Assembly: GCA_001770775.1 (NCBI GenBank)
Contig: MESA01000041.1
Coordinates: 138,652-200,475, forward strand
Source: Burkholderiales bacterium RIFCSPHIGHO2_12_FULL_63_20
GTDB taxonomy: Bacteria > Pseudomonadota > Gammaproteobacteria > Burkholderiales > Burkholderiaceae_C
Direction: 5' to 3'
DNA length: 61,824 bases
The position numbers were made by a program, and so were the translations under genes. This document shows positions 29,581 to 31,251 of the stretch, in pieces. A model generated the notes under the pieces. It searched no databases. It saw only the letters and a list, made by a program, of their open reading frames with translations, and was not told the DNA's origin. The first letter of the stretch is position 1. Every line of letters starts with the position of its first letter.

Positions 29581-31251
29581 ATGAAATTCGTCGATGAAGC
29601 CACCATTGATGTGACCGCCGGCAACGGTGGCAGCGGATGCATCAGCTTCCGTCGCGAAAAATTCATCCCCTTCGGCGGCCCCAACGGCGGCGATGGCGGA
29701 AGAGGCGGGCATGTGTATGTGGTCGCTGACCGCAACATCAACACCCTGATCGACTACCGTTATGCCCGTCACCACGAGGCGCGCAACGGTGAGCAAGGCC
29801 GTGGCTCCGACCAATTCGGCGCGGCCGGTGACGACATCGTCCTGCGCATGCCGGTGGGCACCATCATCCGCGACTTCGAAACCGGCGAAGTGATGATGGA
29901 GTTGCTCGAGCATGGCGAAAAGCGCCTGCTGGCCAAGGGCGGCGATGGCGGTTTCGGCAACCTGCACTACAAGACCTCGACCAACCGCGCCCCGCGCAAG
30001 AAGACCGTCGGCTGGCCCGGCGAGGCTTACAAGCTCAAGCTGGAGCTGCGCGTGCTGGCCGACGTCGGCCTGCTGGGCATGCCCAACGCGGGCAAGTCCA
30101 CCCTGATCGCGGCCATCTCGAATGCCCGCCCGAAGATCGCCGACTACCCCTTCACGACCCTGCACCCCAACCTGGGTGTGGTGCGCGTGGGCCCGGAAAA
30201 AAGCTTCGTGGTCGCCGACATCCCTGGCCTGATCGAAGGCGCCTCGGAAGGCGCTGGCCTGGGTCACCTGTTCCTGCGCCACCTGCAACGCACCCGCGTG
30301 CTGCTGCACGTGATCGACCTGGCCCCGTTCGATGACACCGATCCGGTCAAGCAGGCCCGCGCCATCGTCAACGAACTCAAGATCTACGACGAAGAGCTCT
30401 ACAACAAGCCCCGCTGGTTGGTGCTCAACAAGCTCGACATGGTCCCCGAGGCCGAGCGCGTCACCCGCGTGCTCGAGTTTGTGCGCCGTTATGGTTGGAA
30501 GGGGCCCGTCTTCCAGATCTCTGCGCTGACCCGCCAGGGTTGTGAGCAGTTGGTCCAGACCATCTACAAGCACGTGGCCAGCATGCAGGAGCACCACGAA
30601 GAGGCGGACATTCGCTTCGATGTCGAGGCCAGCCTGCCCATGGCGGCGGACCTGATGGCCCGCGCTGGCTTGCAGTACGACGACGACCTGACGTCCCTGG
30701 TCAAGCCCAAGCAGGCCGCAGCCCGCAAGACGGCGGCCAAGAAAGCACCCGCCAAGAAGGCTGCCGCCAAAAAGGTGCCAGCCAAGAAGGTTGCCGCCAA
30801 GAAAGCGGCCGTGAAGACGGCTGCGACGACCAAGGTGGCAGCGCCCAAGACCGTGTCGGCCAAGCCGGCGGCGGTCAAAAAGGTGGCTGCCAAGAAGCCC
30901 GTCGTCAAGGCCGCAGTGAAAACCGCTGCCAAGCCCGTGGCGAAGAAGGTGGCTGTCAAACCGGTGGCGGCGAAGAAAGCCGCAGCGGTCAAGACCGTGG
31001 CGGAGAAAAAGACCGCTGCGCCCAAGGCGGCGCCCGCCAAGAATGCATCCGTGAAAACGGCCGTGGTCAAGAAAGCCCCGGCGAAGAAGGCAGCGGCCAC
31101 CCAGGTGGCGGTGAAGACTGCGGCAGTCAAGAAGGCCGCAGCGACCAAGGCGCCGGCCCCCAAGGCCCCCGCCAAGAAGGTGGCCGTCAAAAAGGCCGCC
31201 CCCAAGAAGATCGCCGCCAAGAAGACCGTGGCCAAGAAAGCCGCCCGCTGA
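29581..31251 (+). CDS. obgE: Obg-family GTPase ObgE with a long Lys/Ala-rich C-terminal tail
   Basis: 556 residues. The Gly-rich Obg domain (1-158) is followed by the G domain, with P-loop GMPNAGKST (about 168), switch [24 protein letters not shown] (about 284) and the SA motif, ending about residue 345. ObgE monitors ribosome assembly and growth rate. Typical beta-proteobacterial ObgE stops at about 340-390 residues; here a tail runs from about 375 to 556, made of AAKK, PAKK, AVKK and AVKT units with one acidic residue and no aromatics, like bacterial histone H1 or AlgP tails. The frame is continuous, with no sign of a frameshift. The tail could bind nucleic acid; that is inference. proB follows 37 bases downstream. 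Confidence 0.95.
30715..31250 (+). repeat. Degenerate short repeats encoding the ObgE Lys/Ala tail
   Basis: About 536 bases of imperfect tandem units built on GCCAAGAAGGC(T/C) and GTCAAGA(A/C)GG(C/T), out of exact register. They encode (K/A)n-rich motifs. Such repeats tend to change length by slippage, so tail length may vary between strains. Confidence 0.8.

Follow-up and report, generated by a model that had tools for sequence, protein, structure and literature searches.

Within the 61,824-nucleotide window, the term used here for the whole stretch of DNA that was analyzed, obgE occupies positions 29581..31251 of the forward strand as a single uninterrupted frame of 556 residues, without an internal stop. 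The encoded protein scores well above the cut-offs of both TIGR02729, the Obg equivalog profile (471.9 bits versus 280.25), and PF01018, the glycine-rich Obg domain (199.5 bits versus 27, with all 155 positions covered). Profile matches and alignment assign the Obg and GTPase domains to residues 1–343 (29581..30609, +). Residues 1–328 align to residues 1–328 of E. coli ObgE (4csu/7bl2; E 1.2e-120), and the GxPNAGKST motif of the GTPase domain shows no variation across 39 aligned sequences. From homology to the E. coli protein, we infer that this ObgE would be a 50S-binding GTPase. The core is followed by a junction of residues 344–375 (30610..30705, +), which contains a DIRF motif, a short predicted helix (residues 355–361, where the structure model is of low confidence), and an acidic patch. 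Visual comparison finds a segment resembling this junction in the crown group of the tailed clade described below. Residues 376–556 (30706..31248, +) form a strongly basic Lys/Ala tail with no predicted secondary structure.

Two forward-strand ORFs precede obgE, at 28832-29143 and 29189-29446; by the look of their sequences, we take them to be rplU-like and rpmA-like, respectively. Downstream, a further forward-strand ORF (31289..32407), presumably proB-like by the same standard, begins with its own ATG 37 bases past the obgE stop. An antisense ORF of 768 codons (29305..31611, −) overlies obgE and is probably a by-product of GC-rich coding sequence. An Rfam scan of positions 27500-33000 returned zero matches at the gathering score.

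The first-pass annotation had described a continuous frame that joins a normal Obg core to a histone H1-like Lys/Ala tail of about 180 residues, with one Glu and no aromatic residues, and each of these points was borne out by the ORF and by direct residue counting. The 181-residue tail consists of 66 Ala, 53 Lys, 25 Val, 15 Pro, 13 Thr, two each of Gln, Arg, and Ser, and one each of Glu, Asn, and Ile, with zero aromatic residues. Lysines recur with a period of 5 (autocorrelation 0.64 at 5 and 0.44 at 10). The underlying forward-strand DNA contains degenerate tandem repeats at 30736..30824 (periods of 15 and 30 bases, 74–77% matches), 30955..31020 (two copies with a period of 33 bases, 82% matches), and 31128..31245 (period of 15 bases, 67% matches). 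AlphaFold models the tail without secondary structure at block-mean pLDDT values of 42–53, which weakly suggests disorder, the model being poor overall (mean pLDDT 60.9, pTM 0.38, below 50 in parts of the G domain). By composition and period, together with this weak model, the ObgE C-terminus is a lysine-repeat tail, that is, a C-terminal run of Lys/Ala/Pro repeats predicted to be disordered. A profile search likewise agreed with the H1-like make-up: PF07382 (HC2) matched at 48.7 bits versus a cut-off of 40, although such a low-complexity match may reflect composition rather than descent. The other H1-like profiles fell below their cut-offs (NF038053, 49.4 versus 80; NF038052, 25.8 versus 135), and PF07382 gave weak matches in four of 14 control genomes, all under its cut-off. 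Unlike the stand-alone HC2 and H1-like proteins, the basic tail of ObgE lies in frame with a GTPase.

To place the tail in its phylogenetic context, we use "genus" for a predefined genome grouping that was sampled at one genome per species. Of the 42 genus genomes, 38 contain an ObgE match with an E-value below 1e-100, and all 38 were read. The tail is K-rich, defined as at least 12 lysines, in 35 of the 37 readable cases (33 of 35 when only complete genes are counted); the ObgE tree places the two exceptions, G013 and G020, apart from the tailed clade. One gene (G017) was dropped owing to a run of N within the repeat that renders the tail unreadable, and the count includes two partial genes, one truncated where its contig ends (G006) and another without its 5′ part (G039). 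In the genus member L013, an N run inside the obgE repeat is accompanied by a frame that continues into proB, reflecting either a masked stretch or an assembly gap. Complete K-rich tails measure 89–274 residues from the core end, a range that represents variation between species given the sampling. The annotation had called for a comparison of ObgE lengths in close relatives; rather than ending at residue 375, these proteins carry K-rich tails in the 35 of 37 cases above, and a misassembly or fusion involving a separate H1-like gene is thereby ruled out.

In most loci read outside the genus, ObgE has a short tail in place of the long basic one. The family search covered 299 genomes (four from the genus), of which 296 matched; 46 loci were fetched as a nonrandom set (26 best-scoring and 20 picked mostly for long open frames), and 45 were read, L239 being the one left unread. 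Two of the 45 (L233 and L234) contain a modest Lys/Ala insert of 17–21 lysines before a DPRF end, and two others (L249 and L251) have a few lysines in the tail. L242, considered as a K-rich family ObgE, was discarded since its frame runs on into proB. At the order level, 148 of 150 genomes matched, and the 29 loci read (three from the same family) have at most two lysines in the tail. Among the best 80 loci in the genome_contigs search, L153 and L154 are tailed and are members of the tailed group; the other 78 have at most four lysines. At the phylum level, 281 of 299 genomes matched; among the matches listed, 12 of those with the longest frames were read, and their tails hold 0–3 lysines. The relatives read outside the tailed clade thus have short, mostly neutral or acidic ObgE tails, and the earlier statement that ObgE is shorter elsewhere holds for most of them.

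The difference also shows in net charge, which we counted from the core end at about residue 333. The ObgE C-terminus of the source genome carries +47. The 45 family loci outside the genus range from −7 to +7, with the two highest values (+7 and +6) belonging to both Lys/Ala-insert loci, and the median is −3 for the 42 family loci with fewer than 10 lysines. Values were −10 to 0 for the 29 order-search loci and −12 to 0 for 78 of the 80 genome_contigs loci. These data show that the tail inverts the C-terminal charge; it is a real, clade-wide extension of an essential GTPase.

When 84 ObgE cores, with the tail omitted, were placed on a quick tree (SH-aLRT support, no bootstrap), the 33 tailed genus rows grouped into one clade (SH-aLRT 99), with G013 and G020 placed outside it among the family rows. 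Scored at 12 or more lysines, the Lys/Ala state changes twice over the whole tree, the second time at L233/L234, whose insert is, on this topology, a separate small gain. Ten tailed rows outside the crown keep the DPRF(R) end motif after the Lys/Ala insert and carry net charges of +1 to +9; the 23 crown rows (support 94) lack DPRF(R) and carry +11 to +59. A terminal DPRF(R) is common in family ObgE proteins (L027-L031, L281-L287, L036, and others) and has changed once among the genus rows. Because relatives carry shorter Lys/Ala inserts before DPRF(R), the tail appears to have grown in place: the simplest reading is that it expanded inside the linker ahead of the motif, which the crown later lost.

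We also surveyed the 3.69 Mb source genome for similar stretches. A KKxxxKK-type DNA pattern, by which sparser lysine runs are missed, matched 29 times, 10 of them in the ObgE tail, versus one match in a reversed control, an excess beyond chance. Grouped by hand, the matches fall at seven places: HU, RsfS, an H1-like ORF, a small protein on contig C38, TopA, a UvrA-like insert, and ObgE. Pfam supports the HU and RsfS identities; TopA and the UvrA-like protein are named by the look of their sequences and are thus our assumption. Estimated by eye, the tails span approximately 36 residues in HU, 22 in TopA, and 75 in the C38 protein; that of RsfS spans 180. The HC2 profile picked up the three longer tails of this set and, in addition, one weak match, and an H1-like profile search found a second long Lys/Ala tail on contig C21, below the family cut-off. 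The tailed rsfS gene lies on C21 (about 120260-121111, −) and encodes 284 residues with a core of about 108 (PF02410, E 4e-27). ObgE and RsfS therefore carry the two longest Lys/Ala tails on folded-domain proteins in this genome, and the pairing of such tails on ObgE and RsfS, a 50S factor, in the same genome is new here.

Applied to three further genus members and a sister genome, the same pattern gave matches that were examined at 20 stretches; the reversed control gave five matches overall. By look, we presume these to be ArgG, HU, TopA, UvrA, a SWIB-like protein, and small proteins. A short C-terminal Lys/Ala tail is present on the presumed ArgG of three genus members (L348, L357, and L362). 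The presumed UvrA-like protein matches the pattern in L112, L347, and L355, with L112 containing a short internal Lys/Ala insert. A small protein with a Lys/Ala tail occurs in two genus members (L108, a 173-residue frame, and L350, 156 residues); for the L108 protein, Pfam yields a weak HC2 match and nothing else.

RsfS was detected in 39 of the 42 genus genomes, and all 39 tails are K-rich, with 22–50 lysines. At the family level, 117 of 120 genomes matched; the 28 loci read, which scored best among those beyond the genus, carry at least 12 lysines each, with net charges of +23 to +39. Other families of the order yielded 27 loci, of which four went unparsed and seven of the remaining 23 have at least 12 lysines. 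Across the loci compared, the RsfS tail is the wider trait, and because it is more widespread than that of ObgE, it is probably the older part. It also needs no ObgE tail, since family RsfS proteins are tailed while family ObgE proteins mostly are not. The ObgE tail may then be a later addition, in which a neutral-to-acidic end was swapped for a basic one. Tail sizes of the two proteins correlate across 33 genomes when kinship is left uncorrected (Spearman 0.42, p 0.016), but the tree offers two independent contrasts (sign test p 1), and co-evolution of the tails is not demonstrable once the tree is considered.

What might such a tail do? We propose, with evenly balanced confidence, that the ObgE tail is a selected, disordered, polycationic, and sequence-nonspecific second hold on RNA that keeps ObgE on or near the pre-50S particle. 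The tail would grip 23S rRNA nonspecifically, leaving the specific functions to the Obg and GTPase domains, and its grip would lengthen the residence of ObgE. The tail of RsfS would act on the same pre-50S particle, and the coexistence of a tailed ObgE with a similarly tailed RsfS hints at an electrostatic grip on incomplete ribosomes. Counted against this proposal are the absence of the tail from two genus members, G013 and G020, the lack of demonstrable co-evolution between the two tails, and the occurrence of tailed RsfS in the family alongside mostly tail-less ObgE.

Several published observations form the background. In E. coli, ObgE attaches to the 50S subunit and prevents the subunits from joining, a role for which its C-terminus is dispensable; the same text presents Obg C-termini as the diverse, species-specific part of the protein, the function of which is an open question (PMC4028186). 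The ObgE G domain contacts RsfS on E. coli pre-50S particles, a contact that is nonessential, and RsfS raises GTP hydrolysis by ObgE (PMC11505724, citing other work). In mitochondria, the corresponding proteins GTPBP10 and MALSU1 make a similar contact (PMC10693566), and uL14 is a binding partner of RsfS (PMC7125091). As a precedent for prolonged residence, lysine repeats stabilize the TopA–DNA complex and lengthen the stay of TopA on DNA (PMC7398561).

The TopA precedent concerns DNA, and the tail could instead hold ObgE, and RsfS with it, at the nucleoid near rDNA, coupling ribosome assembly to the replication state; the first-pass annotation had suggested a link of this kind, between ribosome assembly and nucleoid state. 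We regard this reading as unlikely, albeit with some merit. The H1-like make-up and the HC2 match of 48.7 bits fit it, as do the shorter Lys/Ala tails on HU and TopA in the same genome. The literature provides further parallels: the HupB tail is required for nucleoid association (PMC5676037), AlgP tail peptides bind DNA (PMC9239181), and E. coli ObgE mutations causing DNA-synthesis defects lie mainly in the C-terminal and G domains (PMC4028186). Since HU, TopA, and the UvrA-like insert also carry Lys/Ala stretches, the motif itself cannot distinguish RNA from DNA. What speaks against a DNA ligand is the identity of the carriers, as the two longest tails on folded-domain proteins belong to 50S factors and not to DNA proteins, and Pfam finds no DNA-binding domain on ObgE or RsfS except for the HC2 matches to the tails. 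The ribosome is favored over the nucleoid because RsfS and ObgE both carry the tail; a Lys/Ala tail on RsfS, a 50S factor, points more to rRNA and the pre-50S particle than to nucleoid state. By analogy, we infer that the ligand would be RNA rather than DNA or polyphosphate.

Polyphosphate is nonetheless a conceivable, if doubtful, ligand, with starvation recruiting ObgE and RsfS through their tails, either off ribosomes or into granules. This idea draws on AlgP, described in PMC9239181 as associated with polyphosphate granules, with a K-rich KPAA tail whose net charge is, by context, given as +55 and a C-terminus on which granule spacing depends. Moreover, ObgE responds to ppGpp (PMC4028186) and RsfS is active in starvation (PMC9503621).

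A different kind of alternative, and an equally doubtful one, holds that slippage in a GC-rich 15-base repeat extended a harmless linker, with the composition simply following the repeat. Crown tails do vary from 91 to 274 residues, the tail DNA is built of degenerate tandem repeats, and near-perfect KKAAPA-type repeats occur in the tails of L015, L016, L018, and L019. The amino acid sequence also changes fast. In seven pairs of relatives, where the tail was taken to start at about residue 348, tail dN exceeds core dN. For the closest pair (source ObgE and G022), one of 347 core residues differs, as do 31 of 203 aligned residues beyond the core; even so, 50 of 54 lysine columns are retained. 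On the other hand, tail dN/dS is 0.04–0.30 in the seven pairs, the tail DNA uses several synonymous codons, and the tail is K-rich in 35 of the 37 readable group members.

We compared each pair with neutral simulations that imposed the same number of changes (400 runs per pair, a fixed transition bias, no slippage or gene conversion). The simulated lysine losses did not exceed the observed number in 4, 46, 3, 6, 0, 237, and 77 of the 400 runs, such that lysine is kept beyond the neutral expectation in four of seven pairs (fewer than 2% of runs), and loss is not clearly below neutral in three of seven, as the slippage account would have it. Simulated gains of Asp, Glu, Gly, Ser, Cys, His, Arg, Met, or aromatic residues equaled or fell short of the observed number in 0, 0, 1, 0, 0, 0, and 219 runs, which places six of seven pairs below nearly all neutral runs and reveals no shortage in one. 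Because dN/dS is low and, for most pairs, lysine losses and other-residue gains fall below the simulation, we read these data as selection on the charge or composition of the tail and not on its exact sequence; the unmodeled slippage or gene conversion could also keep composition, and gene conversion in the repeat could mimic part of the signal.

Extending the proposed pre-50S hold, the ObgE and RsfS tails could together make up a patch of charge that retains late assembly factors on incomplete subunits or gathers them close to nascent rRNA, with the tail of ObgE added later; we offer this version tentatively, as an improbable elaboration.

Lysine-repeat tails are a known general kind, for which ObgE is an unusual carrier whose partner RsfS bears the same. 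The closest protein, E. coli ObgE/CgtA (4csu, 7bl2), shares the Obg and GTPase core and a disordered C-terminus, but its tail of approximately 50 residues is described in PMC10123104 as highly acidic (24 Asp/Glu of 50), in contrast to the 181 strongly basic residues here. Actinobacterial topoisomerase I and HupB place degenerate K-rich C-terminal repeats on a folded protein (PMC7398561, PMC5676037), and lysine repeats also occur in TopA of Caulobacter and Bordetella (PMC7398561); topoisomerase I and HupB bind DNA, whereas the carrier here is a ribosome-assembly GTPase. In pseudomonads, AlgP and PhaF have a long K-rich C-terminal domain, predicted to be disordered in AlgP (PMC9239181), but their repeat is a KPAA tetrad as opposed to a period of 5, and AlgP has a predicted helical N-terminal domain in place of a GTPase. 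Hc2 and the H1-like proteins of Burkholderiales share lysine-rich pentamers and size variation (PMC2848022), and ObgE matches PF07382 above its cut-off, a match that may follow composition; these proteins stand alone, and ObgE misses the cut-off of the H1-like profile NF038053. Further afield, the KKE/D domains of eukaryotic snoRNPs are disordered and lysine-rich and gather biogenesis factors near nascent rRNA (PMC11528048), though their KKE/D make-up and nucleolar setting differ, and we claim no sequence kinship.

Titles and abstract openings among the matches listed in the open-licence literature, which mostly excludes subscription papers, contained no lysine-rich ObgE or RsfS tail, a weak indication that these tails are unreported. 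The main text of a ribosome biogenesis factor survey has zero occurrences of "lysine" and "disordered" (PMC12641178).

Together, these findings provide a graded series of ObgE proteins, comprising two tail-less members, ten with modest inserts before DPRF(R), and 23 with long tails without it, which makes the function of the C-terminus testable. The presence of RsfS tails in every family locus read suggests that lysine tails may be more widely used in bacterial ribosome assembly, beyond DNA proteins. If the proposed patch of ObgE and RsfS is true, it would give bacteria a counterpart of the lysine-rich domains found on nucleolar factors.
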